Source: a virus
Length of the DNA: 21,020 nt
Virus record (IMG/VR): IMGVR_UViG_3300042352_001303
Span: 1-21,020 of that record
Strand: one strand, 5' to 3'
In this document: in pieces, positions 258 through 21,020 of the stretch
Layout of the letters: the number at the start of each line of letters is the position of its first letter
How positions within the stretch are numbered: position 1 is the stretch's first letter
Notes under the pieces: model-generated
Told to the model about the DNA's origin: nothing
Databases searched by the model: none
Seen by the model: only the letters and a program-made list of their open reading frames with translations
Made by a program: the position numbers and the translations under genes

Positions 258-3200
258 ATGACGAGTCTTGTAATAACTAGTTTGAGTGGGGTTGGCCCTT
301 TTACCGTAACATTATGTGATATTACTAACACGTATTGTTATATTGTGGCGACTAATGTAACAACCACTCCATTACTAGTTAATATACCAATACAGTTAAC
401 CAATGTTCAACAAATATTGGTTAATGTTACCGATTCGTATAATTGCGTTGATTTACAATTATATAGTTGCCCTGAACCAACACCAACATCAACAATAACC
501 CCAACCCCAACACAAACCTTAGGGGGATGTAATTGTATTACATTTACAAACTCAACATTTTTTAACCTTAATTTTGGATTAGCCGAATGTAACGGAATAA
601 TATTATCGTCAGTAATAAATCCTGGTGTAACTTTGTATTATTGTGGACAATCCCCATATGGGGATGTAGGTGTCGGTATTAATGTTGGTAATATTTGTAT
701 TAATACATGTTATCCACCGACAAATACTCCTACACCAACAAATACACCAACATCTGTAACGCCAACACCTACCCCAACAAATACTCCAACACAAACTGAA
801 ACGCCGACAAATACTCCAACACAAACTGAAACGCCGACAAATACTCCAACTAACACCCAAACACCAACTAACACGCCAACTAACACGCCTACACCAACTA
901 ACACACCTACACCAACTGAAACTCCAACTGAAACTCCAGTTGAAACTCCGACAAATACCCCAACTGAAACTCCAACACCAACTGAAACTCCAACACCAAC
1001 TGAAACTCCAACACCAACTGAAACTCCAACAAACACACCAACAAATACGCCAACTAAAACTCCAACAAATACTCCAACAAATACGCAAACTAAAACTCCA
1101 ACAAATACTCCAACTAAAACTCCAACAAATACTCCAACAAATACTCCAACAAATACTCCAACTAACACACCAACTAAAACGCCAACAAATACTCCTACAC
1201 CAACAAACACACCAACACCAGGATTATCACCAACCCAAACACCGACTAACACCCCAACTAACACCCAAACACCGACTAATACGCCAACAAATACTCCAAC
1301 TAAAACTCCAACAAATACTCCAACTAACACTCCAACTAACACCCCAACAAATACCCCAACAAATACGCCAACTCAAACTCCAACAAATACGCCAACTAAC
1401 ACCCCAACAAATACCCCAACAAATACGCCAACTCAAACTCCAACAAATACGCCAACTCAAACGTTAACCCCAACTAACACTCCAACTAACACCCCAACAA
1501 ATACTTTAACTCCAACAAATACTCCTACACCAACAAACACACCAACACCAGGATTATCACCAACCCAAACACCGACTAACACTCCAACTAACACTCAAAC
1601 ACCGACTAATACGACAACAAACACACCAACAAATACTCCAACAAACACACCAACAAATACGCCAACTAAAACACCAACAAATACCCCAACAAATACGCCA
1701 ACTCAAACTCCAACAAATACGCCAACTCAAACGTTAACCCCAACTAACACTCCAACTAACACCCCAACAAATACTTTAACGCCAACAAATACTCCTACAC
1801 CAACAAACACACCAACACCAGGATTATCACCAACCCAAACACCGACTAACACTCCAACTAACACTCAAACACCGACTAATACGACAACAAACACACCAAC
1901 AAATACTCCAACAAACACACCAACAAATACACCAACTAAAACACCAACAAATACTGTAACACCAACAAATACTGTAACCCCAACAAATACTGAAACGCCA
2001 ACAAATACTCCCACCCCAACAAATACACTTACACCAACAAATACAGTAACACCAACAAATACTTCAACTCCAGCAAATACTGAAACGCCAACAAATACAC
2101 CAACACCAACAAATACCCTTACACCAACAAATACAGTAACACCAACAAATACACCTACACCAACTAAAACTCCAAGCCAAACGCCAACTAAAACTCCAAC
2201 TAAAACTCCAACTAAAACTCCAACCCAAACTCCAACGCCAACTAAAACTCCAACCCAAACCCAAACTCCAACCCAAACTCCAACTCCTACATCAACGTAT
2301 ATTCCGTCTTGGGACTGTAATGGTATTTATTGTTTTGACCCAGGTGATGGTACAGGATATTTTTCTACATTTGAAGAGTGTGACAGTGTATGTAACACTT
2401 ATGATTGTGTCGAGGGTAATTGTGTACAAAATTTAACTGGTGAGGGAGAATATGTTGGTATAATTGAGTGTTTAACTTTTTGTTTACCAACACCAACTCC
2501 AACCCAAACACCAACTAATACACCAACTAACACTCCAACACCAACTGAAACGCCAACTAACACACCTACACCAACTGAAACGCCGACCCAAACACCAACC
2601 CAAACACCAACTAACACTTCAACACCAACTAACACTCCAACGCCAACTGAAACGCCAACTAATACTCCAACGCCAACTGAAACGCCAACTAACACACCTA
2701 CACCAACTGAAACACCAACCCAAACACCAACTAACACACCTACACCAACTAACACACCTACACCAACTGAAACTCCAACCCAAACACCAACTAACACCCC
2801 AACGCCAACTAACACACCTACACCAACCCAAACACCAACCCAAACACCAACTAACACTCCAACACCAACTAACACACCTACACCAACTGAAACTCCAACC
2901 CAAACACCAACTAACACCCCAACGCCAACTGAAACTCCAACAAATACCCCAACTGAAACACCAACAAATACTCCAACTGAAACGCCAACTGAAACGCCAA
3001 CTAATACTCCAACCCAAACTAACACACCAAGTCCAACTGAAACTCCAACAAATACTCCAACTGAAACTCCAACAAATACCCCAACTGAAACTCCAACAAA
3101 TACTCCAACTGAAACTCCAACAAATACGCCCACCCCAACTGAAACACCAACAAATACTCCAACTGAAACGCCAACCCCAACTGAAACTCCAACAAATACC

Positions 3201-5588
3201 CCAACTGAAACTCCAACAAATACTCCAACTGAAACTCCAACAAATACGCCAACCCCAACTGAAACTCCAACAAATACACCAACTGAAACTCCAACAAATA
3301 CTCCAACAGAAACTCCTACCCAAACTCCGACCCAAACGCCAACTGAAACTCCGACAAATACTCCAACTGAAACTCCAACAAATACCCCTACACCAACTAA
3401 CACTCCGACACCAACAGTTACGCCAACACCAACTAACACTCCAACACCAACTGAAACGCCAACAAATACCCCAACTGAAACTCCAACAAATACCCCAACT
3501 GAAACTCCAACAAATACTCCAACTGAAACTCCAACAAATACTCCAACTGAAACTCCAACAAATACACCAACCCCAACTGAAACTCCAACAAATACCCCAA
3601 CTGAAACTCCGACAAATACTCCTACCCAAACTGAAACACCAACAAATACTCCAACAAATACTCCAACGCCAACTCAAACTCCAACGCCAACTGAAACACC
3701 AACAAATACCCCAACTAACACTCCAACACCAACTCAAACACCTACACCAACTAACACTCCGACACCAACAGTCACACTTGGGTTAACTCCAACACCAACA
3801 AATACTTCAACCCCGACAAATACTATAACGCCAACAAATACCCCTACGCCAACAAATACTCCAACCCAAACACCGACTAACACCCCAACCCCAACAAATA
3901 CACCAACCCAAACATCAACTAACACCCCAACCCAAACTAACACTCCAACAAATACACCAACTCAAACACCAACAAATACTCCAACAAATACTCTAACACC
4001 TACACCAACAAATACACCAACAAATACACCAACAAATACACCAACAAATACTGTGACTCCAACCCAAACACCAACTAACACTCCAACCCAAACACCAACT
4101 AACACTCCAACACCAACTGAAACGCCAACACCAACACCAACAAATACACCAACAAATACACCAACTCAAACTCCAACTCAAACTCCAACCCAAACACAAA
4201 CAAATACTCCAACAAATACTGTAACTAACACCCAAACTCCAACAAATACGCCAACCCCAACTGAAACACCAACAAATACACCAACTGAAACTCCAACAAA
4301 TACTCCAACAAACACTCCAACAAATACGCCAACCCAAACTAACACTCCAACTAATACTGTAACACCAACAGTTACACCAACATCACCACCAGAATTACCA
4401 ATTTATACTGGTGAAACTGTTTGTGATATTCCATATAACATTAACACAGGGATTACAGGTTCTTGGCAGATTACAGTTCAGTTAGGTTCGTATGTGGGAA
4501 CTGTTTCAAGTATTTTTAATGCATATCAGGTACCAGATAAGTTCCAAGTTTTTTGGAATGGGAATTTGGTTATTGATACAGGATTTAGGGGTAACGCTAT
4601 TTTTAATCCACAATTAAATACCTTAGGATATCCAAGTGTTGTAGGTGGAGGTTTTGTTTCCACTTCTTGGACTAAATCAACAGCGTTTCCTGATTTCGCA
4701 ACAGTTGTGGTTACCGCACCTATTGATTCAACTAGATTTTATTTTAAATTGGGATGTCCGACTGTAACACCAACTCCAACCCAAACTCCAACCCAAACAC
4801 CAACACCAACAAATACTCCAACTAATACTCCAACACCTACACCTTTACCGATAATACCACTATGTTCTGTATTAATTAATGGGGGTGTTGACGTATACGC
4901 CTATTTTCCATCATCAAATACTAACGTATTGTTAGGTAATTCTTTTCCTTTTTCCCCAGATATTGCACATACAACAACTAAACTATGGTTGTATGATGGG
5001 ACAATTCTAGAATATGACATAACATTAAGTCCTTGGTCGGCAACGTTCAACAGAACTATCGAATGCCCTTTAGGTGTTAATTTAGGGAATGGTTTAGGCT
5101 CCATTACCAACACTGAGTTAATCTCAACAGACGATACAGTAACTCCTAATCAAATAATTGTTTTAGATATTACCACAAGTACCGCAGTCTCAACTGTAAT
5201 TGGAACACTAGGGGTTGGTAGGTATGTTTCGGGTGATATTTTATTAACAACTACAAATAAAATATTAGTTACTAATGAAGGTAATGATGGAGTATTCCTT
5301 AGTCAATATAGTTATCCGTCAGGTACTTTTGAAGTTGAGGTCGATATTACGTCAACCACAAGCCAACCGTATGGTTTATTTATTGATAGTGGTAATATAT
5401 ATGTTTGTAACAGTGGTGGTGAAATATATAATGTTGATGTTAACTTCCCATACACACAAACATTATCTAATATCTCAGGATTATTTGTTGGAGGAGCATC
5501 TCAAGTACTAAGTTGTTGTGATACTAACCTAAACTTACCACCAACTCCTACACCAACAAATACTCCAACACCTACACCAATCGCATAA
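258..5588 (+). CDS. Giant Thr-Pro-repeat (mucin-like) multidomain fibre or adhesin protein
   Basis: 1776 residues, with no recognised family over the full length. Order along the chain: residues 1-73, a small beta-rich domain; 74-88, a short TP linker; 89-152, a Cys-containing beta domain; about 154-680, Thr-Pro repeats ([24 protein letters not shown]); 681-745, a duplicated Cys-rich motif (DCNGIYC...EC...C, then DCVEGNC...EC...C); 745-1375, a second TP tract richer in Glu; 1376-1500, a beta-sandwich-like domain containing [19 protein letters not shown]; 1503-1530, a TP linker; 1531-1762, a domain with propeller-like strands ([19 protein letters not shown]); 1763-1776, a TP tail. No signal peptide or membrane helix is evident. 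TP tracts of this kind form stiff, extended, often O-glycosylated stalks. With glycosyltransferases directly downstream and tail proteins beyond them, I infer a virion fibre whose stalk may be glycosylated. A cell-surface adhesin is the alternative. The ATG at 258 follows a short AT-rich leader without a Shine-Dalgarno. Confidence 0.8.
717..2298 (+). repeat. First Thr-Pro coding repeat tract (6/12-nt periodic)
   Basis: About 1.58 kb of in-frame hexamer and dodecamer repeats of the form ccaacaaatact (PTNT), with variants actgaa (TE), actaaa (TK) and acccaa (TQ). The + strand is almost devoid of G. Third positions vary freely (aca, act, acg, acc for Thr; aat, aac for Asn), so the peptide repeat is more regular than the DNA. 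The tract holds three copies of a distinctive block reading GLSPTQTPT, with ggattatcac at 1221, 1551 and 1821. Confidence 0.95.
1381..1920 (+). repeat. 270-bp (90-codon) near-perfect tandem duplication inside the first TP tract
   Basis: Positions 1381-1650 and 1651-1920 carry the same order of landmarks 270 nt apart: acgttaaccc at 1461 and 1731, atactttaac at 1501 and 1771, and ggattatcac at 1551 and 1821. Only scattered substitutions separate them. Because 270 is a multiple of 3, the reading frame is kept. This marks a recent unequal-recombination or slippage event. A third, older GLSPTQ copy lies 330 nt further upstream, at 1221. Confidence 0.85.
2299..2490 (+). other. Cys-rich duplicated motif within the fibre gene
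   Basis: Residues 681-745 interrupt the TP repeats with two tandem copies of a roughly 27-residue motif: (W/Y)-D-C-x4-C, then a Gly-rich turn, an aromatic, and EC-x3-C. Each copy has four Cys, which suggests a pair of small disulfide-knotted knobs on the stalk. I recall similar 'C...C...PGDG...EC...C' motifs from Bacteroidota and phage proteins of unknown function, but no function can be assigned. Confidence 0.6.
2490..4380 (+). repeat. Second Thr-Pro coding repeat tract (Glu- and Gln-rich variant)
   Basis: About 1.9 kb of the same 6/12-nt periodic coding repeats, here dominated by PTETPT and PTNTPT, with PTQTPT towards the end and one break reading [10 protein letters not shown] near 3770-3800. 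Glu replaces the Lys variants of the first tract, so this half of the stalk would be acidic. Synonymous codon use is again mixed. It is in frame with the flanking domains. Confidence 0.95.
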
Positions 5589-5676: not shown

Positions 5677-6924
5677 ATGAAAATATTTGTTCAGATAGCC
5701 TCTTATCGTGACCCCCAACTTATCCCAACAATCAAATCAATGTTGGAGAATGCCAAAAACCCAAAAAATTTAGTAATCGGAATTTGTCGTCAATACCATC
5801 CTGAGGATGGGTTTGATGATTTATCAGAATATGCTAAAGATAAACGATTTAGAGTTATTGATGTTTTATATTCTGACGCTAAAGGAGTTTGTTGGGCAAG
5901 AAACCAAGTTCAACAATTATATAAAGGTGAAGAATATACCCTACAAATAGACTCTCATATGAGATTTGAAAAATATTGGGACGATACCTTAATCAAAATG
6001 GTTAAACAACTTCAAAAGAAAGGATTTGAGAAGCCTTTATTAACAGGATACGTATCTTCATTTGACCCGGACAATGACCCGGCAGGTAGAGTTACGGTAC
6101 CTTGGAGAATGGCTTTTGATAGATTTATTCCTGAAGGGGCGGTATTCTTTTTACCTGAAACAATTCCTGGATGGGAAACCCTTAAAGAACCGGTTACTTC
6201 ACGATTTTATTCTGCCCATATGGCATTCACTCTTGGTCAATTTAGCGTTGAAGTTCAACACGACCCTGAATTTTATTTTCACGGAGAAGAGATATCAATC
6301 GCCGTTAGAGCATTCACTCACGGATATGATTTATTCCACCCACATAAAGTTGTGATTTGGCACGAATACACCCGTAAAGGTAGAACAAAACAATGGGACG
6401 ACGATAAAGAGTGGGGTAAGAAAAATGAATTATCCCATAAAAAAAATCGTCAACTATTTGGTATGGATGGTGAAGAGGTAACAATGGATTTTAGTTATTA
6501 TGGATTTGGAACCGAAAGAACTTTAAAAGACTATGAGATTTATTCAGGTCTTAGATTTTCAAATAGAGCGGCACAACAATATACTTTAGATAAACATTAT
6601 GCTCCTAATCCAACAATTTATGAAACTGAAGAGGAATGGTTGGCAAGTTACGCTACTATTTTTAAACATTGTATTGATGTTGGTTTTACTCAAGTTCCAG
6701 AAAATGACTATGATTTTTGGGCGGTAATTTTTGAGGGTAGTAATGGTAATGAGTTATATAGGAAAGATGCGGATAAGGAAGAAATCAATCGATTAAAATC
6801 TGACAAAGACGGATATTGTAAAATATGGAGAGATTTTCAAACAACTGAAAAACCAAATAAATGGATTGTATGGCCACATAGTGAGTCTAAAGGTTGGTGT
6901 GATATAATAACAGGTAACTTATAA
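5677..6924 (+). CDS. GT60-type GlcNAc transferase (Skp1/mucin-type protein O-glycosyltransferase family)
   Basis: 415 residues. The family pattern is clear: a start reading IFVQIASYRDPQL (residues 3-15), GVCWARNQVQQLY (70-82), the metal/sugar-nucleotide site LQIDSHMRFEKYWD (89-102, with D92-S93-H94 in the DxD position), FHGEEISIAVRAFTHGYDLF (201-220), WHEY (228-231) and the late FGTERTLKDYE (277-287). GT60 enzymes are GT-A-fold UDP-GlcNAc transferases. Known members modify hydroxyproline on Dictyostelium Skp1, or start mucin O-glycosylation by adding alpha-GlcNAc to Thr in Dictyostelium and Trypanosoma cruzi. Here the gene lies just after the Thr-Pro fibre gene (88-bp gap) and opens a seven-gene cluster, so the fibre is a plausible acceptor; this is inference. 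No signal peptide or membrane helix is seen, so the protein should be cytoplasmic. Sugar and acceptor are untested. Confidence 0.85.
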   Translation: MKIFVQIASYRDPQLIPTIKSMLENAKNPKNLVIGICRQYHPEDGFDDLSEYAKDKRFRVIDVLYSDAKGVCWARNQVQQLYKGEEYTLQIDSHMRFEKYWDDTLIKMVKQLQKKGFEKPLLTGYVSSFDPDNDPAGRVTVPWRMAFDRFIPEGAVFFLPETIPGWETLKEPVTSRFYSAHMAFTLGQFSVEVQHDPEFYFHGEEISIAVRAFTHGYDLFHPHKVVIWHEYTRKGRTKQWDDDKEWGKKNELSHKKNRQLFGMDGEEVTMDFSYYGFGTERTLKDYEIYSGLRFSNRAAQQYTLDKHYAPNPTIYETEEEWLASYATIFKHCIDVGFTQVPENDYDFWAVIFEGSNGNELYRKDADKEEINRLKSDKDGYCKIWRDFQTTEKPNKWIVWPHSESKGWCDIITGNL

Positions 6925-6926
6925 AA

Positions 6927-7775
6927 ATGGTTAAAATTTACGATGAATATGATTCATATTTAGAGGGAGGACATTTTTCATCACCAAGAAAAAATTTGGG
7001 GAATAAATTGTTTATATATTCCGCTTGTAGAATAATTAGTGAACTATTAGGGTATGAGTTAATATCTCCCGAAAACGCGTTAGTAAGAAGAGAAGATACC
7101 GAAAATGGACAATATAAAGAAATCCTATTCCCATTTAAAGGTGTTAAAGGAAATATTGTGGATGACCCAATTAAAGTTATTCAAGATGGCGACATCATAC
7201 AATTAGGTAGTATTGAAAATTTAATACAATCCTACCCAAATCATGGATTTTTAAATCAATCATATTTTTCAAAATATGATTACATTAAACCATATAAGAC
7301 TAAGGTTAAAGAATATTTTAAAAGTATCGTTAAAGATAAAAGGGTTGGTAACGATTTAGTAATTATGTTAAGAAGTAGTAATTACGACGGAAGTTTTGTT
7401 TTACCCGACAGTTATTACCTTAATATTATATCTCAAGAAACTTTTGATAATTTATATATTTCATTTGACCATATAAACAAACATCAATCATTAATTAATA
7501 AATTAGAGAAATATAACCCTAAATTAATTGATGGTGATATACTTGAAGTTTTTTCAGAAATCACATCATTTAATACAATAATCGCCGCTCAAGGAACATT
7601 TTCTTTTTGGGCTTGTTTTTTATCTAACGCCAATAAAATATATTGGCCGATTACCAATGATGGTCCAAATTCCGGTAAAAACTCAAATAACCCCGTGTTT
7701 AACTCATATGTTAATTTAACGGTCGATGATGAACCAAGATATGAATTAATAAACGTAACAGATATATACAAATGA
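6927..7775 (+). CDS. Probable fucosyltransferase-like glycosyltransferase (GT11-like)
   Basis: 282 residues. The N-terminal stretch NLGNKLFIYSACRIISELLG (residues 23-42) matches the 'GLGNQMFQYA.aR.lA..lG' signature of alpha-1,2-fucosyltransferases (GT11) and related GT-B enzymes. Later features also fit: a strand reading VIMLRSSNYD, then a SYY segment, a Rossmann-like LYISFDHINKHQSL, and near the end AAQGTFSFWACFLSNANKIY, comparable to the 'SSFSWWaa.L' donor-site segment of GT11. These enzymes transfer fucose from GDP-fucose. Whether this protein uses fucose cannot be told. The gene starts 2 nt after the GT60 stop and its own stop overlaps the next start by ATGA, so it should be co-translated with its neighbours. 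There is no signal peptide. Confidence 0.6.
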   Translation: MVKIYDEYDSYLEGGHFSSPRKNLGNKLFIYSACRIISELLGYELISPENALVRREDTENGQYKEILFPFKGVKGNIVDDPIKVIQDGDIIQLGSIENLIQSYPNHGFLNQSYFSKYDYIKPYKTKVKEYFKSIVKDKRVGNDLVIMLRSSNYDGSFVLPDSYYLNIISQETFDNLYISFDHINKHQSLINKLEKYNPKLIDGDILEVFSEITSFNTIIAAQGTFSFWACFLSNANKIYWPITNDGPNSGKNSNNPVFNSYVNLTVDDEPRYELINVTDIYK

Positions 7776-8452
7776 TAAAAACAATCAATTTTAGTCTTTT
7801 TGGTACTGAAATGAAGTATTACATGGGAGCCGAAAAAAATGTTATAATTAATAAAGAATTATTACCAGATTGGACAACCGTAATATATTACCATCCTCAA
7901 AACATAATTCAAGGTTATGTCGAAAAACTGTCTTCATTAGGTGCGACAATGGTGGATGTGTCAAATATAAAGTTAGGTGATAAAGAATCAATTCACTTCC
8001 CATATTTTTGGAGATTTCTTTCATTTTTACAAGACAGTCCCTCAATAGTTAGAGATTTGGACAGTAGAATTTCTGAAAGAGAAGTAAAATATATTAGAAA
8101 ATGGGAAGAAACAAATAAAGATTATTTTATTATCCGAGACCATCCGTGGCATGCACCCGTACCAAGTGGGTTATTTGGTATTAAGAAAAAAATAGAAGAG
8201 TTTGAAAAACACTTTATTGAGTTTGTTAATATTGATGAGTTACGTTGGGGGTCCGACCAAGAAATTTTAAGAATTTATATGGAAAATATTAGTGACGAAA
8301 ATGTGTTTTATTGTGGTTACGATATTCAAACCAATTATATACCTAGAGACGATAAAACTTTTTTTATTGGAATGCAAATGAATGAAAATGATGAACCAAC
8401 AGTCCCAAGTGGTGTACAGTGTTTAAATTACCTAAACGAAATAAATTTATAA
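7772..8452 (+). CDS. GT-A-fold glycosyltransferase with DxDSR motif
   Basis: 226 residues. The order of motifs is a short N-terminal strand (INFSLFG), LLPDWTTVIYYHP (residues 30-42), FWRFLSF (79-85), the DxD-type metal site IVRDLDSRISEREV (92-105, D95 and D97), and IIRDHPWHAPVPSGLFGIK (120-138). The sequence 'RD.DSR...RE......W.......RDHP.H......G.WG.K' recurs in uncharacterised capsule-type and viral glycosyltransferases. Donor and acceptor are unknown. The protein is close to the usual minimum for a GT-A domain, so it has no extra domain. It overlaps the preceding gene by 4 nt and sits 1 nt before the next, in keeping with a single operon. Confidence 0.65.
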   Translation: MIKTINFSLFGTEMKYYMGAEKNVIINKELLPDWTTVIYYHPQNIIQGYVEKLSSLGATMVDVSNIKLGDKESIHFPYFWRFLSFLQDSPSIVRDLDSRISEREVKYIRKWEETNKDYFIIRDHPWHAPVPSGLFGIKKKIEEFEKHFIEFVNIDELRWGSDQEILRIYMENISDENVFYCGYDIQTNYIPRDDKTFFIGMQMNENDEPTVPSGVQCLNYLNEINL

Positions 8453-8453
8453 A

Positions 8454-9215
8454 ATGAAGTATTGTTTTACAACTTTGGCTGTCGGTGAGCCATATGAAGA
8501 ATTAACCGCAAAGTTATACACAAGTTTAAGAGATAAAACTCAAAACTGTGAATTTTTTATAACAACAAATAACCCTAACTTCCCTGATTTAGGTGAAAAA
8601 ATTCACATTAATAGAGAGTCATTACAAAGTCTACACGATTCTAAAGGTGGATTTAGTTTTCATTTAAATTATAAGTGTTTATCAATTAAACACGTTTTGT
8701 CTAATGAAAAACAAATGTTATCATTAGACCCAGAATTTAAAAAATTTGATTACGTAATCTTTACTGACGGTGATTGGATTTTGGAAAGCGGGTTTTCTGA
8801 AGAGAAGATTTTAAATATGTTAAATTATATGGAAACTGAAGGATTTGATTTTGCATTTGAAAGACCTGCAAGTATCGGTGATGGTAGACGAGACCCTGAA
8901 AATAGTTTCTATAGAGATAAAATTTATGATTATGATATATTAGAATATGATAAATGGGATGAGGCTCACGTTGTTAATGAACAATGTTTGGTATTTAAAA
9001 ATAATTATAAATTTAGATTTTTTGCTCAAAGATGGGAACAATTTTTATGGTATTCAATCCATAACGATATTAGAAACTACCCTGACGGTTTTGAGATTGG
9101 AGTATCGGCTTTAGAAGCAGGGATGAAATGGAACTACAATGGAGTGTTTAATCACTTTTTACAAGGATGTTTCGGATTTTATACTAAACTTGGTGATTAT
9201 CACATTAGATTTTAA
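8454..9215 (+). CDS. Putative GT-A-like glycosyltransferase
   Basis: 253 residues, no precise family recognised. A nucleotide-sugar-transferase-like N-terminus (CFTTLAVGEPYEELTAKLYT, residues 4-23) is followed by FFITTNN, then FDYVIFTDGDW (98-108), where D105-G106-D107 is a good DxD metal site. An acidic and aromatic C-terminal half contains NEQCLVFKNN and a His-rich end (FNHFLQGCFGFYTKLGDYHI). The pattern fits a small retaining GT-A enzyme acting on sugar nucleotides. It lies 1 nt after the previous gene and 17 nt before the methyltransferase, within the same cluster. Substrate is not inferable. A non-enzymatic GT-like fold is possible but less likely given the intact DxD. Confidence 0.5.
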   Translation: MKYCFTTLAVGEPYEELTAKLYTSLRDKTQNCEFFITTNNPNFPDLGEKIHINRESLQSLHDSKGGFSFHLNYKCLSIKHVLSNEKQMLSLDPEFKKFDYVIFTDGDWILESGFSEEKILNMLNYMETEGFDFAFERPASIGDGRRDPENSFYRDKIYDYDILEYDKWDEAHVVNEQCLVFKNNYKFRFFAQRWEQFLWYSIHNDIRNYPDGFEIGVSALEAGMKWNYNGVFNHFLQGCFGFYTKLGDYHIRF

Positions 9216-9232
9216 TTATATATATATATATT

Positions 9233-9769
9233 ATGTCACACAAAGAACAACAAGATTTCCTAACGTATGTTAGAGACAAATTCCCAAATAAATTTGAGAA
9301 TTGTAGAGTTTTAGATATCGGCTCATTAGATATCAATGGTAATAACAGGTATTTGTTTACAAATTACGAATACATCGGACTAGATATTGGTGAAGGAAAC
9401 AACGTAGATGTTGTATGTAGAGGTCACGAATATAATGATGAAAAATTATTTGACGTAATTGTGTCTTCAGAATGTTTTGAACACGATGAATTTTGGGAAT
9501 TAACAATAAAGAAAGGTATCGATTTACTTAAACCAAATGGCGTGTTTTTATTTACTTGCGCTACAACAGGTAGACCGGAACACGGAACAAAAAGAACATC
9601 ACCAAGCGATAGTCCATTTACTTCAAGTTTAGAGAACGATTATTATCGAAATTTAGAAGAAGATGATATTCGACAATCAATTAATGTTGATGAAATATTT
9701 TCAGAATATGAATTTCAGAGTAGACTAAATTGGCCACAAGATTTGTATTTTTGGGGTATTAAAAAATAA
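9233..9769 (+). CDS. Class I SAM-dependent methyltransferase
   Basis: 178 residues, a compact Rossmann methyltransferase. Motif I is CRVLDIGSLDINGNN (residues 24-38), the ribose-binding acidic residue is D51 in YIGLDIGEG, and motif IV is FDVIVSSECFEHD (73-85). Motif VI-like KKGIDLLKPNGVFLFTCATT follows. It belongs to the Methyltransf_11/25-type superfamily. Members of this size methylate sugars, small molecules or proteins. Inside a glycosyltransferase operon, methylation of a sugar on the glycan being built is the most economical guess; methyl capping is common in surface glycans. The leader is an unusual run of alternating AT (9216-9230) without a Shine-Dalgarno. The fold assignment is secure; the substrate is not. 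Confidence 0.75.
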   Translation: MSHKEQQDFLTYVRDKFPNKFENCRVLDIGSLDINGNNRYLFTNYEYIGLDIGEGNNVDVVCRGHEYNDEKLFDVIVSSECFEHDEFWELTIKKGIDLLKPNGVFLFTCATTGRPEHGTKRTSPSDSPFTSSLENDYYRNLEEDDIRQSINVDEIFSEYEFQSRLNWPQDLYFWGIKK

Positions 9770-9772
9770 AAT

Positions 9773-10696
9773 ATGAAATCAAAAATTGTAACGGCTTATT
9801 GGATGGATGTTGAGGGGTATCCATTTCAAGGAGTACTTCCAGTTAGAAAAATAAGATATCAAGGTTCTTTAATTTCTCATTGTACTGGTAGTGGACTACC
9901 GGTTATTTGCTATACTCATAGTAAAAATTATGACGAACTTAATGATATTAAAGTAAAGTATAATTTAACTAATTTAGAGTTGAAAATATTAGAATTATCT
10001 GATGTGAAATATCACACTGAAATTGAAATGATTAGAAATAATAATTTTGATACCGATTTGGATGGTAGAGGTCCTGAAATAATGTGGGGAAAATTTGATG
10101 TGTTAGAAAGAGAACTTGACGGATTTGATAGGGTTTATTGGGTGGATGTTGGTTTACAACACCCGGGCATATTCCCTTGGATGTACTCTAAAGTTCACAA
10201 TGAGAATTCTGAAAATTTAGGCGTACCAACAAATTGGTGGGCTCATTTAGATGTGTTTAATTTTTCAAAATTAATTGATAGTGAAGTGTATGATAAATTA
10301 AATAAAATCTGTGAAAATAAAATAATGTTTGTTTGTTCATATGGTCCTCAAATAAGTTATCCGTTTTTAAATTATGGAATATTAAACAAATCGTTTGAAT
10401 CTCCATACCCGGTTGGTGGTATGTTTGGTGGGGATGTTCAAGTATTAAAGAAATATATAAATTTATTTTGGGAATTCACTGAGAAAATTTTAGAAAAAAA
10501 CTTACTTTGTACAGAAGAAGTAATTATGAAACCGTCCTACGATTTAATTGATAACGATGAAAAGGTTACACTTATGTTTAACGCGTTTGCGTCTGGGGAA
10601 CACGATGATTATCACTACACTATGTGGAATGAAGGAAAAAATACACCAAAACCTTTCTATATGATGTGGCACAATATAAAAAATTTTAAAATATGA
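9773..10696 (+). CDS. HtrL/WlaTC-like putative glycosyltransferase
   Basis: 307 residues. It begins KIVTAYWMDVEG and has FDRVYWVDVGLQHPGIFP at about residues 118-135. The same 'W-(V/I)-D-x-GL-x-x-x-x-x-P' signature occurs in the next gene (YMFWIDAGLTNTIHPGYF), so the two are probably related and may share catalytic logic. In HtrL/WlaTC-type proteins this WxDxG segment takes the place of a DxD. A later segment GGMFGGDVQVLKKYINLFWE resembles the 'a.fFgG....i......yy' region of that family. Known members act on lipooligosaccharide or capsule. The final four bases overlap the next start (ATGA), so the two proteins are translationally coupled. Donor and acceptor are unknown. Confidence 0.55.
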   Translation: MKSKIVTAYWMDVEGYPFQGVLPVRKIRYQGSLISHCTGSGLPVICYTHSKNYDELNDIKVKYNLTNLELKILELSDVKYHTEIEMIRNNNFDTDLDGRGPEIMWGKFDVLERELDGFDRVYWVDVGLQHPGIFPWMYSKVHNENSENLGVPTNWWAHLDVFNFSKLIDSEVYDKLNKICENKIMFVCSYGPQISYPFLNYGILNKSFESPYPVGGMFGGDVQVLKKYINLFWEFTEKILEKNLLCTEEVIMKPSYDLIDNDEKVTLMFNAFASGEHDDYHYTMWNEGKNTPKPFYMMWHNIKNFKI

Positions 10697-12369
10697 ATAA
10701 AATAACATTAGTAACCGGTTTATGGGATTTAGGTAGAGATAAACTCACCGAAGGGTGGTCTCGGACATATCAACATTATTTAGATAAATTTCAACAACTT
10801 TTACAAGTTGATGTAAATATGATAATTTTTGGTGATGAGGAATTAGAAAAATTTGTTTCAGAGAATAGACGTAATGAAAATACACAATTTGTTCGCAGAG
10901 AGTTATCTTGGTTTAAAAATAATGATTTTTATGATAAAATACAAAAGATAAGAACCAATCCTGATTGGTATAATCAAGTTGGTTGGTTAACAGAGTCAAC
11001 TCAAGCTAAACTAGAGATGTATAACCCTTTAGTTATGTCTAAAATTTATCTTTTACACGACGCAAAAATTTTAGATAAGTTTAATTCAGAATATATGTTT
11101 TGGATTGACGCGGGATTAACAAATACAATTCACCCTGGATATTTTACAAGTGATAAGGTTTTAGATAAACTACCTAAGTTAGTTAAGAATTTCCATTTTG
11201 TTTGTTTTCCTTATGAAACAACTAGTGAGATTCACGGATTTAAATATCAAGAGTTATGTGAATTAGCAGGAAAACCTGTTAATATGGTTGCAAGAGCAGG
11301 ATTCTTTGGTGGAAAAAAAGATTTTATTTCTGAAATAAATAGTTTATACTATGGATTAATGAACGATACATTATCCCAAGGATTGATGGGAACTGAAGAG
11401 TCGTTATTTACAATTATGACATACAAATACCCTAATTTAATTACTTATTCTGAAATTGAAGGTAATGGGTTAATGGGTAAATTTTTTGAGGATTTAAAAG
11501 ATATGACAGTTGAGGTAAAATCGGAAGTATCAAAAGATGTTGTTGTTAATAATTTGGACACATCAAAAGTTGGATTATACGTGATTACTTTTAACTCACC
11601 AAAACAATTGGAGGTTCTTATTCAGTCAATGTTAGATTACGATAAAGATTTTGTAGAGAAACCAAAGAAATTCTTATTAGATAATTCAACTGATTTATCA
11701 ACAACACCAAGATATCTTGAACTATGTGAACAATATGGTTTTGAACATATTAAAAAAAATAATATAGGTATTGTTGGTGGTAGAGTATTTGTTGCCGAAC
11801 ATTTTGATGAAACTGATTTGGATTTTTATTATTGGTTTGAAGATGACATGTCATTTTATCCTAAAAAGAATGAAGTTTGTAGAAATGGTTTTCCTCGTTT
11901 TGTGGGTAACTTATATCAAAAATCATTAGAGATTATTCAAAAAGAAAATTTTGATTTTTTAAAATTAAATTTTAGTGAATTTTACGGCTCAAACGATATT
12001 CAATTCTCATGGTATAATGTGCCCCAAGATTTCAGACAAAAACATTGGCCAAACAATCCTAAATTACCTGTACAAGGATTAGACACCAATTCCCCCAAAA
12101 CAAAATTTGATGAAATACATATTCACAAAGGATTACCATATGTATTGGGTGAGATTTTTTTATGTAATTGGCCAATTGTATTAACAAAAGAGGGTAATTA
12201 TAAATGTTATTTAGAGACAAAATGGGCTCACCCTCACGAACAGGTACTAATGAGTTATTCTTATCAAGAAACGGTTAAAGGTAATATTAAACCGGGATTA
12301 CTGTTATTAACACCAACAGAACACAATCGATTTGACCATTATGACGGCTCATTAAGAAAAGAAAGTTAG
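10693..12369 (+). CDS. Two-domain glycosyltransferase: HtrL/WlaTC-like plus GT2-like
   Basis: 558 residues with two GT modules. Residues 1 to about 265 look like the WlaTC/HtrL family: ITLVTGLWDLGRDK (4-17), WSRTYQHYLDKFQQLL (22-37), VNMIIFGDEELEKFV (41-55), FWIDAGL (136-142), and ARAGFFGGKKDF (200-211). After a linker (about 270-292), a second domain starts with VGLYVITFNSPKQLEVLIQS (293-312), then NNIGIVGGRVFVAEHF (356-371) and the DxD-like WFEDDMSFYP (381-390), the layout of a GT2 family GT-A enzyme. The C-terminus has a His-rich segment (KWAHPHEQVL). A protein with two transferase domains could add two successive sugars. It is the last gene of the operon and is followed by an HNH remnant rather than a clear terminator. 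Confidence 0.65.
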   Translation: MNKITLVTGLWDLGRDKLTEGWSRTYQHYLDKFQQLLQVDVNMIIFGDEELEKFVSENRRNENTQFVRRELSWFKNNDFYDKIQKIRTNPDWYNQVGWLTESTQAKLEMYNPLVMSKIYLLHDAKILDKFNSEYMFWIDAGLTNTIHPGYFTSDKVLDKLPKLVKNFHFVCFPYETTSEIHGFKYQELCELAGKPVNMVARAGFFGGKKDFISEINSLYYGLMNDTLSQGLMGTEESLFTIMTYKYPNLITYSEIEGNGLMGKFFEDLKDMTVEVKSEVSKDVVVNNLDTSKVGLYVITFNSPKQLEVLIQSMLDYDKDFVEKPKKFLLDNSTDLSTTPRYLELCEQYGFEHIKKNNIGIVGGRVFVAEHFDETDLDFYYWFEDDMSFYPKKNEVCRNGFPRFVGNLYQKSLEIIQKENFDFLKLNFSEFYGSNDIQFSWYNVPQDFRQKHWPNNPKLPVQGLDTNSPKTKFDEIHIHKGLPYVLGEIFLCNWPIVLTKEGNYKCYLETKWAHPHEQVLMSYSYQETVKGNIKPGLLLLTPTEHNRFDHYDGSLRKES

Positions 12370-15698: not shown

Positions 15699-16312
15699 TA
15701 AGAAATTTTCTCCTTCCTGGAGAAAAAGAAGAAATTATAGATTGGGTAAAGTCAATTAATTTTACTCAATCTATAAATAATCATCACATTAAAGAAGTTC
15801 GTAAAAATCTTAACGGCAACTCTTATATGTTTGATATTTCTAAAACTTCAGAAACAAAAAAAATCACAGAATTTCAATCAAGTGGTAATGTTATAAATGA
15901 GAATCCTCCACAAATAATAATTAATCTAATTGATCGTATTTCAAAAGAAATAAAAATTTCAAAAGATAACGTATTCTTTCAAGTAATAGATATGAATTCT
16001 GGTGGTAAGGTTAATCCACATTATGATGCCACTATAAATGGATTTATTAATTATAAATGTAATATCAGTGTATTATCTGAAATTTATGAATTTTACATAG
16101 ACAATGATGTAATGAATATAAATGAAGGCGATTTATATTGCTTTGAAGCTTCTTTATATAAACATTGGTCTAATGAATTCAATTTTAATAGAATATTATT
16201 GAGTTTTGGTTTTGTTTTGAAATATTCAGAGTTGGGTAGAAATGAGTATGACCATAGAGTTAGATTAAGTAATAGAATAGAAAAATACTTTCAAAAAAAC
16301 CCATCAATTTAA
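15674..16312 (+). CDS. 2-oxoglutarate/Fe(II)-dependent oxygenase (prolyl-hydroxylase-like fold)
   Basis: 212 residues. The start HKIIRNFLLPGEKEEIIDWV (residues 6-25) is the usual helix and strand opening of small 2OG oxygenases. The iron triad is seen as H116-x-D118 in NPHYDATINGF and H164 in LYKHWSNEF, followed by R173 in FNRILLSFGF, the 2-oxoglutarate-binding Arg. All facial-triad residues are therefore present. Family members hydroxylate Pro, Lys or Asn in proteins, or act on small molecules or nucleic acids (AlkB); this sequence has no clear subfamily mark. Phage genomes often carry such genes, commonly near tail genes. With a hydroxyproline-type GT60 and Pro-rich fibres nearby, a prolyl hydroxylase role is attractive but unproven. 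The start overlaps the previous gene by 25 nt; the N-terminal motif supports it. Confidence 0.75.
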   Translation: MESENHKIIRNFLLPGEKEEIIDWVKSINFTQSINNHHIKEVRKNLNGNSYMFDISKTSETKKITEFQSSGNVINENPPQIIINLIDRISKEIKISKDNVFFQVIDMNSGGKVNPHYDATINGFINYKCNISVLSEIYEFYIDNDVMNINEGDLYCFEASLYKHWSNEFNFNRILLSFGFVLKYSELGRNEYDHRVRLSNRIEKYFQKNPSI

Positions 16313-16328
16313 TGATGGGTTTTTTTTA
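16293..16328 (+). terminator. Rho-independent terminator after the oxygenase gene
   Basis: Arms ACCCATCA and TGATGGGT (within 16293-16320) flank a six-base loop ATTTAA. The A-run before the stem pairs further with the T-run after it (eight T at 16320-16327). The TAA stop of the oxygenase gene is in the loop, so the left arm is coding. It should end transcription before the Nudix-lysozyme gene. Confidence 0.88.
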
Positions 16329-16350
16329 TTTAAATTACCTTTTTTATTCA

Positions 16351-16358
16351 TATTTATA
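16351..16358 (+). promoter_or_regulatory. TATTTATA box before the Nudix-lysozyme gene
   Basis: TATTTATA lies right behind the terminator and 3 nt before the GTG start at 16362. It recurs before 12527 and 13240. An ATG at 16360 directly followed by TGA overlaps the GTG out of frame, so the GTG is the only plausible start for the long frame. Confidence 0.3.
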
Positions 16359-16361
16359 TAT

Positions 16362-18335
16362 GTGAAAAGTCTAAGAAATTATATAAGAACAGTCTTAAAT
16401 GAGGCTTCTATTAATGATAAAGGAGAGTTGGTTGACTTTAGTGTTAAGACTCAGTATCCTCATAAAAAAATAGGAAAATTCATAAAAGACTATATAGATA
16501 CCAATTATGAAGATTGGGCTAAAATGGGTTGGGCTATATTTGATTCATATTATGATTCAGATAAATACGAAAGTGATACTGATACATTTTGGAGAGCAGA
16601 AAGAATAGACAATCCTCAGGATTGGGATGTTCCTGTTTTGATTACTTTAAATAGTGATGAAGAAGCAGCACGAAAAGCTAGAGATGTAGGTTTTAGTGTA
16701 GATGATGAAGGTATTATCACAGGTCTTTGGGGTATTAATATGGTTGATTCTCTACAAGAATCAGAAAGACCTATTAAAAGAGTTGCTGGTGCTTTAATTA
16801 AAGATGAAGAATCTGGGGATGTTTTATTGATAAAGAGAAATGATAAAACTCCAAAATGGGCAATGGCCACAGGAAAGATTGATGAAGGCGAAGATTCTCT
16901 TGAGGCATTGGAAAGAGAAATTTATGAAGAGCTATTTATCAAACCTGGTCAGATTAGATTAAATTATAAGGGTCTTGAATCTTTCCCTGCACAAAACATG
17001 GAGTTATATTATTATGAAGGTTTTGTCAGAGGTAAATTTAAGCCTCATTTAGATGAGGAAAATCTAGATTATGGTTGGTTCTCAATTGATAAACTCCCAA
17101 GTCCATTAATTGGCGGTCTGTATAACAAAATAGAACAGATTGAAAAAAATACAATGAAATATTCTGACACAAAACAAATAGCAGAAGTAAGAAAGCAAGT
17201 TCGCTTGATTATGGAAAGTAAAATTATGCCTAAGTTTTACCTTCAGGAAGCTGTAAGATTAATAAAAGAAGAGGAAGAAAAATCACCAACTTTTCATTGG
17301 GATTTGACAAATAAAGGTGTAAAGGATGAGCCTTCGCCAACATATAATTGGGATTTAACAGACAAGGGTGTAAAAGATGATATTTCACCAACATACCATT
17401 GGGATTTAAGCAAAGATAAGCCTAAAATAGATTCTTATGAAAAAGCTAAAGAGTATATAGACAAGGCATTGTCTTATATTAAGGATAAAGTAACTGCTTT
17501 AGAGTTTATTAAAGACTTAAAAGACTATATACAAGATTTATCAACTGCTAGTAAAATAAAACTAACAAAATATGTTGCAACTGCCCTTTTGGGTATTGTC
17601 GGTTTTAATGGTTTATCAAATCTTATGTCAAATTCAAGTTCTGAGGTTGAAAAAGAAGTTATCAGTTCTATAGATAGAGAAATAAATACGAATATAGATA
17701 TAGAAAAGGGAATTCAAGCAAGCATAGAAAAAAATACAGAAAAGAACATAGAGAAAAGACAGGAAGTCAAAAATAGACCAAGCTCTGTAACATCTGAGTT
17801 AATTGATTCACTAAAAGACGAAGAACAACTAAGAACTACATTTTATGATATTGATGACGGGGCTTACACTGTAGGTTGGGGTCATGCTGTATTTAAAGAT
17901 CCTTCTAGGGGAAGTACGGGCGGAGATTATGATTTTATTCCTAGTTATGAAGATATAGTTCCAGGTGTTACATCAATAACAGTAGATCAGGCTGAGCAAT
18001 TATTGCGAAATGATGTTAATGATGCAAAAACTAAATTGGATGCACTATTGGATAATGAAGGGATAACTGCAAAAATAGATCAAGATATGTATGATGCTAT
18101 GGTGTCAATGGTATACAATATGGGTGCTGGAGAGAAGTTTAAGGAATCAGATTTTTTTAAGGCACTAAAAAAAGGCAATCTAATTAAAGCCTACCACAAA
18201 ATAGATGATATTGATAGTGCTGCTTTGCTGGATAAATATCCAGGATTAAAAACTAGAAGAGCTAAAGAAAAAGAAAGATTTGGTAGAAATCTAGCAATAA
18301 CAAAAACATCTTCAGATGTAAATAATTTATCATAA
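16362..18335 (+). CDS. Nudix hydrolase - T4-type lysozyme (GH24) fusion with capsid-targeting-like N-terminus
   Basis: 657 residues from a GTG start. Residues 1-15 (MKSLRNYIRTVLNEA) resemble the T4 internal-protein targeting peptide MKTYQEFIAE|A and end in an LxE|A site. About 16-135 is an unknown domain. About 136-255 is a Nudix domain: its box GKIDEGEDSLEALEREIYEE spans 171-190 and continues LFI to 193, with G171, E177, R185, E186, E189 and E190 in place (Phe where Gly is usual). At 283-297 lie IME|S and LQE|A, two more prohead-protease-like sites. Residues 308-358 hold three 17-residue SPT(F/Y)xWDL repeats. Residues 400-422 are a hydrophobic stretch, perhaps a membrane helix. About 475-645 is a GH24 lysozyme: E488, YDIDDG (495-500), T503, GWGH (505-508), MVYNMGAG (583-590), GLKTRRAKEKERF (628-640). 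Nudix enzymes hydrolyse nucleoside diphosphate derivatives; GH24 cuts peptidoglycan. Finding both in one phage protein is unusual. Packaging in the head is inference. Confidence 0.82.
   Translation: MKSLRNYIRTVLNEASINDKGELVDFSVKTQYPHKKIGKFIKDYIDTNYEDWAKMGWAIFDSYYDSDKYESDTDTFWRAERIDNPQDWDVPVLITLNSDEEAARKARDVGFSVDDEGIITGLWGINMVDSLQESERPIKRVAGALIKDEESGDVLLIKRNDKTPKWAMATGKIDEGEDSLEALEREIYEELFIKPGQIRLNYKGLESFPAQNMELYYYEGFVRGKFKPHLDEENLDYGWFSIDKLPSPLIGGLYNKIEQIEKNTMKYSDTKQIAEVRKQVRLIMESKIMPKFYLQEAVRLIKEEEEKSPTFHWDLTNKGVKDEPSPTYNWDLTDKGVKDDISPTYHWDLSKDKPKIDSYEKAKEYIDKALSYIKDKVTALEFIKDLKDYIQDLSTASKIKLTKYVATALLGIVGFNGLSNLMSNSSSEVEKEVISSIDREINTNIDIEKGIQASIEKNTEKNIEKRQEVKNRPSSVTSELIDSLKDEEQLRTTFYDIDDGAYTVGWGHAVFKDPSRGSTGGDYDFIPSYEDIVPGVTSITVDQAEQLLRNDVNDAKTKLDALLDNEGITAKIDQDMYDAMVSMVYNMGAGEKFKESDFFKALKKGNLIKAYHKIDDIDSAALLDKYPGLKTRRAKEKERFGRNLAITKTSSDVNNLS
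17283..17435 (+). repeat. Three 51-nt (17-residue) SPTxxWDL repeats
   Basis: Units start at residues 308, 325 and 342: SPTFHWDLTNKGVKDEP, SPTYNWDLTDKGVKDDI, SPTYHWDLSKDKPKIDS. The Ser-Pro-Thr-aromatic-x-Trp-Asp-Leu core is invariant. They lie exactly between the Nudix and lysozyme halves. No family is recognised; a linker that binds a partner or peptidoglycan is possible. Confidence 0.85.
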
Positions 18336-18347
18336 TTAATTAATAAA

Positions 18348-18947
18348 ATGTATACAGAAGAACAAATTGAAAATGCTGTAAAAACTAAGGGTTATGTTTG
18401 GTTTGATGATAACTTAAACAAAGGTTATGATGTTAATATTGTAAGTATAAGAAACTCAGATACTGATGATAAAGTTACAAATTTATTTGATGATACTATT
18501 ACGATTACATATAAAAATAAAAAAGGAGAAGTTGAATTTAGACAATGGCCTTGCACTACAGATCCAGGTAAAAAATCAGTTATAGGGTTTAAGAACCCTA
18601 AGGGGGTAGGAAGGCTTAAAGAGGGTCAGTATCGTGGTTCACACGAAATAAGAAAACATCAAGGTAAATATAATGCTTTATGCCAAAAAGGATTGCTTGA
18701 GGTTTATCGTGATAAAAACAAAGATATGGTTTACGATGAAAATAAGACTGAAAAAGGTAGCGGTTTTGGTATCAACATACATCACGCTGGATCAGATTCA
18801 ACTTTTGTTGATTTATGGTCTATGGGTTGTACAGTGTTTAAAAAAATAGCTGATTTTAATGAGTTTATGAAAATTTGTTATAAAGCTAAAGCTATTCATG
18901 GAAATTCTTTTACATATACTCTTTTGGAAAGTAAAGACATTGTTTAG
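18348..18947 (+). CDS. Probable L,D-transpeptidase-like (YkuD-type) cell-wall protein
   Basis: 199 residues. The core order is IVSIRNSD (31-38), a beta strand ITITYKNKKG, QWPCTTDPG (66-74), LKEGQYRGSHEIRKHQGKY (90-108), LEVYRDKNKD (117-126), GFGINIHHAG (139-148) and VDLWSMGCTVF (154-164). The 'G-x-N-I-H-x-x-G ... W-S-x-G-C' arrangement, with H145/H146 and C161, matches the catalytic His and SxGC Cys of YkuD-type L,D-transpeptidases. Those enzymes act on peptidoglycan stem peptides. I recall related proteins in Bacteroidota and their phages, often annotated only as hypothetical. No signal peptide is present. It follows the Nudix-lysozyme gene by 12 nt and precedes a terminator, so the pair probably forms a lysis or wall-degradation unit. 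The motif is persuasive; the activity (transpeptidase, hydrolase or neither) is open. Confidence 0.55.
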   Translation: MYTEEQIENAVKTKGYVWFDDNLNKGYDVNIVSIRNSDTDDKVTNLFDDTITITYKNKKGEVEFRQWPCTTDPGKKSVIGFKNPKGVGRLKEGQYRGSHEIRKHQGKYNALCQKGLLEVYRDKNKDMVYDENKTEKGSGFGINIHHAGSDSTFVDLWSMGCTVFKKIADFNEFMKICYKAKAIHGNSFTYTLLESKDIV

Positions 18948-19652: not shown

Positions 19653-19654
19653 GA

Positions 19655-21020
19655 ATGTTCATTACAACAACATTACCATATAGCAATAGTGAACCTCATA
19701 TAGGTCATGCTTTTGAATTTATTATAGCAGACGTTATAGCAAGATACTATAGAAACAAAATTGGTAATGATAATGTTTTTTTTAATGTTGGATTGGATGA
19801 GCATGGAAAGAAAATTTTTGATGCATCTATTAGAGAAGGTAAATTACCTTTGGATTTCTTGGATGAATTAGATATAAAATGGAGACAATTCTGTCATAAA
19901 TTTGAAATTTCTTTTGATAATTTTTATAGGACATCAGATTACCCACACTACTCAAAAGTTCAAAGGTTTTGGGTTGATCTCCAAAAGAAAGGATTAATCT
20001 ATGAAAAAGAATATTCAGGAAAATATTGTATAGGATGTGAATCTTTTAAAACAGATAAAGATTTGGTTGATGGAAAATGTCCAGACCATAAAAATGTGAC
20101 AATTACAGATGTGAATGAAAAGAATTATTTTTTCAGATTGTCTAAATTTAAAGATGAGCTCAAGAGAGTGTATGATGAAAACGAAATAGTTTTTACACCA
20201 GCTTCAAAAAAAACTGAAGTAATTAATTTTATTGAAGACTTACAAGATATATCTATTTCTAGACATAAAGATAGTGTGAGGTGGGGCATTCCAGTTCCAA
20301 CAGATAGAGAACAGGTTGTGTATGTATGGTTTGACGCTTTGTTGAATTATATCTTTGCGGCAGGTTATGGATCTAACTACAAAGATTTTGATGACAATTG
20401 GAAAGACACCATTCAAATTTTTGGCCCAGACAATATCAGATTTCAATCTGTAATATTTCAAGGTTTGTTATCTGCTGTTGGAATTAAAAATACATCTAGA
20501 TTAATTTGTCATGGAACGATACTAGACAAAGATGGTATTAAAATGTCCAAGACAATGGGAAATATTGTTAACCCAATGGAACAATTAGAAAGGTACGGAA
20601 TTGATGCTGTAAAGTATTATTCCCTTGTTGGGTTGAATATATACTCAAATTCATCTTGGAGTGAAGATGATTTAGTTAAATTATATAATTCTCATCTAGC
20701 TGATGATTATGGAAACTTGTTATCTAGAGTCGTTACCCTTATATCAAGAGGTTTAAAAGAGAATGAAATGTTGAACGACCCAAATATTGATTTGGACCAT
20801 TCGTTTATTGACAATGATAAATTAGCAGTTCTAATAAGAGAGCAGGTTTCTGAGATAAAAGACTTGTGGGAAAATTATAGAATTACAGAGGCATTTATTG
20901 AAACAAACAAATTAGTTAAGTGGTGCAATAAATATGTCAATGATGAACAGCCTTGGAAAAAAGAAGGTGATTGGTGGAACACATTGTTAGAGCTTCATTA
21001 TATTCTATTAATGGTAACTG
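19655..21020 (+). CDS. Methionyl-tRNA synthetase-like class I enzyme, C-terminus cut by window edge
   Basis: The frame opens with ATG at 19655 and stays open to the last base (455 codons). Class I signatures are complete: TTTLPYSNSEPHIGHAFEF with HIGH at residues 15-18, GLDEHGKK, a zinc knuckle with C125, C128, C142 and H145, WGIPVP and VWFDALLNY, and KMSKTMGNIVNP with KMSKT at 296-300. Organisation is that of bacterial MetRS with one knuckle, as in Thermus. The anticodon-binding helical domain has begun (residues about 330-455). Unusual are Q264 and F268 in FGPDNIRFQSVIFQ, where MetRS normally has a His and a Trp in the 'H.vfWp..L' segment that lines the methionine pocket, so amino-acid specificity may be altered. 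Aminoacyl-tRNA synthetases are known from very large phages and giant viruses but are uncommon. It is 2 nt after the preceding gene, with no Shine-Dalgarno. Confidence 0.85.
   Translation, partial: MFITTTLPYSNSEPHIGHAFEFIIADVIARYYRNKIGNDNVFFNVGLDEHGKKIFDASIREGKLPLDFLDELDIKWRQFCHKFEISFDNFYRTSDYPHYSKVQRFWVDLQKKGLIYEKEYSGKYCIGCESFKTDKDLVDGKCPDHKNVTITDVNEKNYFFRLSKFKDELKRVYDENEIVFTPASKKTEVINFIEDLQDISISRHKDSVRWGIPVPTDREQVVYVWFDALLNYIFAAGYGSNYKDFDDNWKDTIQIFGPDNIRFQSVIFQGLLSAVGIKNTSRLICHGTILDKDGIKMSKTMGNIVNPMEQLERYGIDAVKYYSLVGLNIYSNSSWSEDDLVKLYNSHLADDYGNLLSRVVTLISRGLKENEMLNDPNIDLDHSFIDNDKLAVLIREQVSEIKDLWENYRITEAFIETNKLVKWCNKYVNDEQPWKKEGDWWNTLLELHYILLMVT

Follow-up and report, generated by a model that had tools for sequence, protein, structure and literature searches.

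What becomes of a viral protein that carries a Nudix hydrolase and a lysozyme in a single chain, behind a short basic leader and with protease-type sites between its modules? The window, a stretch of 21,020 nucleotides from IMG/VR virus record IMGVR_UViG_3300042352_001303, encodes such a protein at positions 16362–18335, as a single intact frame of 657 amino acids with a GTG start. From the N terminus, it is composed of a basic leader, a segment termed module A, a Nudix domain, SPTxxWDL repeats, a hydrophobic helix and a GH24 lysozyme. The initial annotation had proposed a Nudix–lysozyme fusion, and both domains were found in one frame with Pfam scores over the cut-off, NUDIX at residues 139–246 (E 6e-16) and Phage_lysozyme at residues 486–636 (E 4e-19). 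The gene is probably a late gene for a T4-style polyprotein whose leader directs it into the head, where the prohead protease divides it into modules that later leave with the DNA. Its features are as follows.

16350–16357, plus strand: ATATTTAT, a promoter-like element a few bases 5′ of the start codon; a consensus match, not promoter proof.
16362–16403, plus strand: leader MKSLRNYIRTVLNE, residues 1–14, predicted capsid-targeting propeptide cut at LNE|A, from its predicted helix at 2–14 and similar N termini elsewhere.
16404–16760, plus strand: module A, residues 15–133, of no known family; acidic, 13.8 kDa, pI 4.3.
16752–16760, plus strand: LQE|S cleavage-type site, residues 131–134, before the Nudix module, its position shared with six standalone Nudix relatives.
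16761–17216, plus strand: Nudix module, residues 134–285, 17.7 kDa (Pfam NUDIX, 6e-16).
17208–17216, plus strand: IME|S site, residues 283–286, identified by sequence; within the predicted helix 271–307.
17241–17249, plus strand: LQE|A site, residues 294–297, from alignment with standalone lysozyme relatives.
17283–17435, plus strand: three tandem SPTxxWDL repeats, about residues 308–358; single copy in relatives; predicted disordered.
17574–17630, plus strand: probable transmembrane helix, residues 405–423, hydrophobic; hydropathy peak within a predicted helix at 395–423.
17817–18269, plus strand: GH24 lysozyme domain, residues 486–636 (Pfam, 4e-19); model pLDDT mostly above 85.

The gene probably begins its own transcription unit, because a terminator-like hairpin and T-run precede it at about 16300–16327. 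The ATATTTAT element belongs to the most frequent upstream 8-mers of the related contigs G004, G006, G007 and G008, and is also found 5′ of most lysozyme relatives and of five of the six distinct Nudix relatives. An AlphaFold model of the whole protein (mean pLDDT 64), confident for the lysozyme only, predicted disorder near residue 133 and at residues 308–354, and a helix over residues 271–307. Module A, modelled with low confidence, gave no Pfam match over the cut-off and has no homologue in the fetched loci.

The leader, MKSLRNYIRTVLNEA, is basic and extends over 14 residues up to LNE|A, with a predicted helix at residues 2–14 and a low-confidence break at residues 13–16. Like the propeptides of T4 IPI, IPII and IPIII (ipI, ipII and ipIII, translated from the T4 record), it is a short N-terminal segment ending in L/I-x-E followed by A, at residues 14/15. 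The match to the T4 internal-protein leader that had been proposed in both length and pattern thus applies to the pattern; the exact length differs, being 14 residues here compared with 10 in IPII and IPIII and 19 in IPI. In T4, packaging needs no more than the first 10 residues of IPIII (its CTS), and cleavage by gp21 falls after L/I-x-E (PMC9026906).

Three LxE-type sites had been described, namely that of the leader, IME|S at residues 283–286 and LQE|A at residues 294–297. All three are present exactly as claimed, and a fourth, LQE|S at residues 131–134 just before the Nudix domain, had been missed. With A or S required as the next residue, [LI]xE occurs at four sites (LNE|A at 14, LQE|S at 133, IME|S at 285 and LQE|A at 296; 1.1 expected), all of them in inter-module stretches. 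In 20,000 shuffles these stretches never received four sites of this kind, a result that is optimistic in that the stretches were picked after the sites had been seen. No L/I-x-E occurs beyond residue 303. The whole-protein count of [LI]xE triplets is uninformative, because the nine observed are the number expected by chance (8.9 in shuffles). This total, with the shortness of the motif, is what would be seen if a short amphipathic N terminus and common L-x-E triplets merely resembled a leader and cleavage sites, an explanation left with very little probability by site positions that two unrelated families conserve and by out-of-sample enrichment in several genomes.

The first of these families is that of the Nudix half. 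The Nudix box has the consensus GX5EX7REUXEEXGU; in the window protein (GKIDEGEDSLEALEREIYEELFI) the REUXEE residues are intact and the last consensus G is replaced by F. A direct search using the Nudix half alone found no relatives. The domain is 42% identical to a standalone leader-bearing Nudix protein of G006, and a two-sequence profile built from this pair retrieved eight standalone relatives; the G006 match seemed to run past its stop, which proved on checking to be a chance alignment. The six distinct relatives are 41–50% identical, 144–165 amino acids long and each equipped with its own leader. In all six, L-x-E stands shortly ahead of the Nudix fold (LTE|S, LNE|S, LME|N, LME|N, LLE|E and LLE|E), and since LQE|S of the window protein occupies the same place, the site overlooked in the initial annotation is a conserved one. 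The domain and its box are shared with Nudix hydrolases of the MutT, Ap4A and Dcp2 types and with T4 NudE, although similarity to NudE is weak and the close relatives are the leader-bearing phage proteins.

For the lysozyme half, a profile search yielded 67 relatives in IMG/VR, from which 28 representatives with less than 75% identity (window included) were taken, 24 of them full length with the WD motif. L/I-x-E lies within 25 amino acids upstream of the WD motif in 24 of these 24 distinct sequences, which do not represent 24 independent events. Random 25-residue windows after the WD motif contained L/I-x-E in 2.6 of 24 on average (maximum 8), and shuffling of the same 25 residues gave 14.5 of 24 on average (maximum 22 in 5,000 shuffles). 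Conservation of the site is not merely shared sequence, because the propeptides differ strongly among subgroups. In the window protein the site is LQE|A (294–297), which aligns with LNE|A, ISE|A and LNE|V of standalone relatives and, judged by this alignment, is the former leader site of a lysozyme gene. Sites 133 and 296 thereby match the L-x-E of standalone Nudix and lysozyme relatives, respectively.

The lysozyme domain contains a catalytic Glu and the T-x-G-x-GH motif, and its best PDB fold match is the phage muramidase 6et6 (TM-score 0.82 by target length, TMt). E488 and D499 are invariant and T503 is nearly so; the residue at the position of T4 Asp20 is not Asp, and D499 may replace the catalytic Asp. 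The fold and motif are those of GH24 phage lysozymes (T4 e, P22 and 6et6), from which the domain differs in this apparently shifted Asp and in being preceded by a propeptide, a WD motif (W313 and D314, invariant in 25 sequences) and a transmembrane helix, the last two of which the initial annotation had also overlooked. It is plausible from the fold that this half attacks the wall.

Resemblance of the fold to phage endolysins, together with a hydropathy peak marking a transmembrane helix ahead of the catalytic domain in most relatives and a promoter-like element common to likely late genes, would also suit a membrane-anchored lysis endolysin of the signal-anchor type, with extra cytoplasmic domains and an incidental leader and L-x-E sites. 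We regard this as distinctly unlikely. The helix is distant from the N terminus, at residues 405–423 of 657 and at about 75–130 in most standalone relatives, which is not the arrangement of a SAR endolysin. Separate candidates for lysis exist, a PG-binding amidase endolysin in G004 and an endolysin-like gene next in the window (18348–18947). The L-x-E in 24 of 24 lysozyme relatives and the leaders of the Nudix relatives would be left unexplained, and the lysis role is less likely because of the G004 amidase and because it does not account for the anchor position, the WD motif or the cut site. The endolysin-like gene lies directly 3′ of the ORF; its neighbourhood is not shared among its relatives, and the search for them yielded L104, an 8-kb contig in which adjacent small ORFs (L104:4056-6058, minus strand) have leaders very like those of T4 internal proteins (MIKSFSEFINES, MLNNFNQFINES, MILNDFNQFVNEA and MGTKHIKTYSNFLLEQ).

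Both halves of the protein also occur as separate genes within one contig. G006 (122 kb; loci L069 and L132) carries leader-bearing Nudix and lysozyme genes, and G024 (380 kb; loci L146 and L144) carries a leader-bearing Nudix gene and a lysozyme gene along with an S77 prohead protease. The window protein looks like a product of fused leader-bearing cargo genes, because the standalone relatives of both halves bear a leader or L-x-E at the same positions. Among the relatives found there was no other example of the same Nudix–lysozyme fusion. In three phages (L083, L087 and G024) the lysozyme is preceded in the same chain by a different leader-bearing domain (MNIRKIIIEE, MNNLRKILKEE and MEIRKIIREE, then FxWxxxV); leader-bearing cargo has therefore been joined to this lysozyme more than once.

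If the gene arose by fusion, the internal L-x-E sites could be its relics, with the protein packaged, only its leader removed and the Nudix–lysozyme injected as one bifunctional chain. Of the four sites, IME|S (285) and LQE|A (296) lie within the predicted helix 271–307, and polyvalent injected proteins normally work as multidomain chains (PMC5512222), both of which favour an uncut product. We nevertheless consider it unlikely, as the module-boundary sites coincide with those conserved in standalone relatives and LQE|S at residues 131–134 is situated in a predicted disordered linker.

The window leader scores best against the N termini of unrelated proteins in related phages, such as MKNLNYIIRKVLLET, MKNINDIIRKVLIES and MNSIRKIVREILKEA. 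One leader-bearing protein is present in the window record, and many are present in G004, G007, G008 and G024. A leader pattern defined on G004/G001 and afterwards applied to other contigs was found at 14 of 126 N termini in G004, compared with 1.3 expected from internal windows. Corresponding counts, some paralogues included, were 16 of 184 in G007 (2.0 expected, maximum 7), 17 of 175 in G008 (2.4, maximum 9), 12 of 134 in G024 (2.6, maximum 7) and 8 of 147 in G006 (2.6, maximum 9). L/I-x-E at N-terminal positions 10–20 is in about twofold excess in G004, G006 and G007 and in smaller excess in G008, with no such excess in RM378 and phi38:1. Leader enrichment was likewise absent from RM378, an S77 phage, and from the phi38:1 control, and was modest in Immuto.

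A family scan of 56 proteins left most without a known family. Recognised leader-bearing proteins include an ART-PolyVal ADP-ribosyltransferase (G004), an Acb1-like protein (G006) and polyA-polymerase-like, P-loop kinase-like and GP88-family proteins, some of which, to judge from their families, would be enzymes of the kinds expected of injected effectors. The Acb1-like 2H phosphoesterase (L129:11473-12036, minus strand; Pfam Acb1 over the cut-off) is encoded in the same contig as the leader-bearing Nudix and lysozyme genes, and is a candidate head-packaged anti-CBASS protein. Neighbouring gene runs at L119:13140-16515 and L125:6557-9223 share leaders such as MKIIISESQYNLLLES, a candidate leader class, and another candidate class, MKRIIKLTESDLARIVRRVISEQ, occurs elsewhere in G007.

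The leaders thus form several classes, of which only some resemble the T4 CTS, as might be expected if they sorted proteins to a place other than the head, such as the tail, the membrane or an intracellular structure. This has a low probability in our estimation, lower than that of a lysis role: the L-x-E fits the gp21 rule and the capsid-protein site of the same lineage, the T4 CTS is a characterised precedent of this form, and leader-bearing genes lie between the protease and the scaffold in G024.

Packaging in the head with cutting by a gp21-type enzyme would draw on a protease encoded elsewhere in the genome, as the 21-kb window record contains no head gene and no gp21-family protease. An S77 (gp21-family) protease is encoded in three large lysozyme-bearing contigs, G004 (1e-34), G007 (8e-24) and G024 (5e-29), and was not found in most other lysozyme-bearing contigs. 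G006 and G008, the larger contigs without S77, look incomplete because a full-length gp23-like capsid gene is also missing from both, so the absence of S77 there says little. At the position of the T4 E65 cleavage, gp23-like capsid proteins have LNE|V in G004, INE|A in G007, LME|T in RM378 and VSE|A (I at P4) in Immuto. The literature checked contained no virion proteomics for Immuto or Molly.

Several further observations concern head genes and the remainder of the window. Scaffold-like proteins beside the gp23-like capsid gene end in R-x-x-LAG[IL] (ARMKLLAGI, SRWQKLAGI and ERIKRLAGL; L012:2501-3934, L028:27626-28867 and L034:28198-29046, minus strand), a motif that recurs near the N or C terminus in several further proteins, among them the L001–L005 lysozymes, and that may be a second packaging tag. 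An RMxxLAG[IL] tail signal was dropped as evidence for the window protein, from which the motif is absent. Small ORFs of about 100 amino acids at L001:7379-7708 and, arranged in tandem, at L002:6736-7580 (minus strand) show similarity to part of the interior of the gp23-like major capsid protein (E about 1e-9 to 1e-6). In the window, positions 258–5588 encode a probable fibre or surface protein of 1,776 residues, in which PT-rich tandem repeats predominate; positions 5677–12369 hold a glycosyltransferase-like and methyltransferase cluster, of which the family search confirmed only the methyltransferase at 9233–9769; and a frame at 19654–21020, running off the right end, resembles by eye a methionyl-tRNA synthetase.

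The principle of cargo that is packaged, cut and injected is already known from T4, giant phages and polyvalent proteins (PMC9026906, PMC5694885 and PMC5512222). As with the T4 internal proteins, unrelated cargo stands behind similar leaders and related phages encode a gp21-family protease; unlike them, the window cargo is multi-module with further internal sites, and shares no recognisable homology with the mature internal proteins. T4 Alt, a packaged ADP-ribosyltransferase, is likewise an enzymatic head cargo with a gp21-cut propeptide and has a parallel in the leader-bearing ART-PolyVal protein of G004, although Alt is a single enzyme, whereas the window precursor carries both a Nudix domain and a lysozyme. 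Two enzyme domains on one chain recall the polyvalent proteins of phages and conjugative elements, which combine disparate enzyme domains, lysozyme among them, in a single chain and are thought to be injected along with DNA (PMC5512222). The window protein differs from these in that two domains only are recognised, no peptidase domain is present and cutting is predicted to fall to the prohead protease. In the giant phages SPN3US and phiKZ, too, the prohead protease cleaves head proteins on the C-terminal side of glutamate, and these ejection proteins leave together with the DNA (PMC5694885), although SPN3US uses A-x-E sites and some propeptides of more than 120 residues, compared with L/I-x-E and a short leader here. 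In the T4 record (L136:3416-5490), nudE, e (lysozyme), ipIII and ipII are neighbours, an order that mirrors the fusion, possibly by coincidence. Fused multi-site cargo and a leader-bearing set of such size were not found in the open-access papers searched, and no report of the leader set was found in PubMed Central (open-access papers only).

The reading as a head-packaged polyprotein, first advanced in the initial annotation, is well supported by comparison with relatives in respect of the capsid-targeting leader and the gp21-type sites between modules. Computation shows the architecture, the conserved site positions, the existence of each half as a leader-bearing protein in its own right and the protease of relatives; packaging, cutting, injection, substrate and enzyme roles are what we infer. 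Following fusion of separate leader-bearing cargo genes, the basic helical leader would bring the precursor into the prohead core, like the CTS of T4 internal proteins. A gp21-type (S77) prohead protease would then cut after L/I-x-E at residues 14, 133, 285 and/or 296, freeing module A (13.8 kDa), the Nudix hydrolase (17.7–19.1 kDa) and a membrane-anchored GH24 lysozyme (40.7 kDa), and these pieces would exit the head together with the DNA. The lysozyme would open the peptidoglycan, or else lodge in the inner membrane at the point of entry, and the Nudix enzyme may act on a host nucleotide, be it a defence signal, a NAD-type metabolite or an RNA cap.

Head-targeting leaders of the T4 kind have been known from a small number of proteins in T4 and related phages. 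Whether large uncultured T4-related phages pack dozens of unrelated effectors (Nudix, lysozyme, ADP-ribosyltransferase, Acb1-like and others) in the head by means of short, swappable, protease-removed leaders, some of them fused into self-splitting polyproteins, appears to us evenly balanced. If they do, the splitting of such polyproteins would give the prohead protease a new use, and injected effectors could be found by their leaders, a tag readable from sequence. Proteins of unknown function that bear the tag would then be candidate first-minute effectors or anti-defence factors, and the set of injected proteins that it marks in uncultured phages would be much larger.
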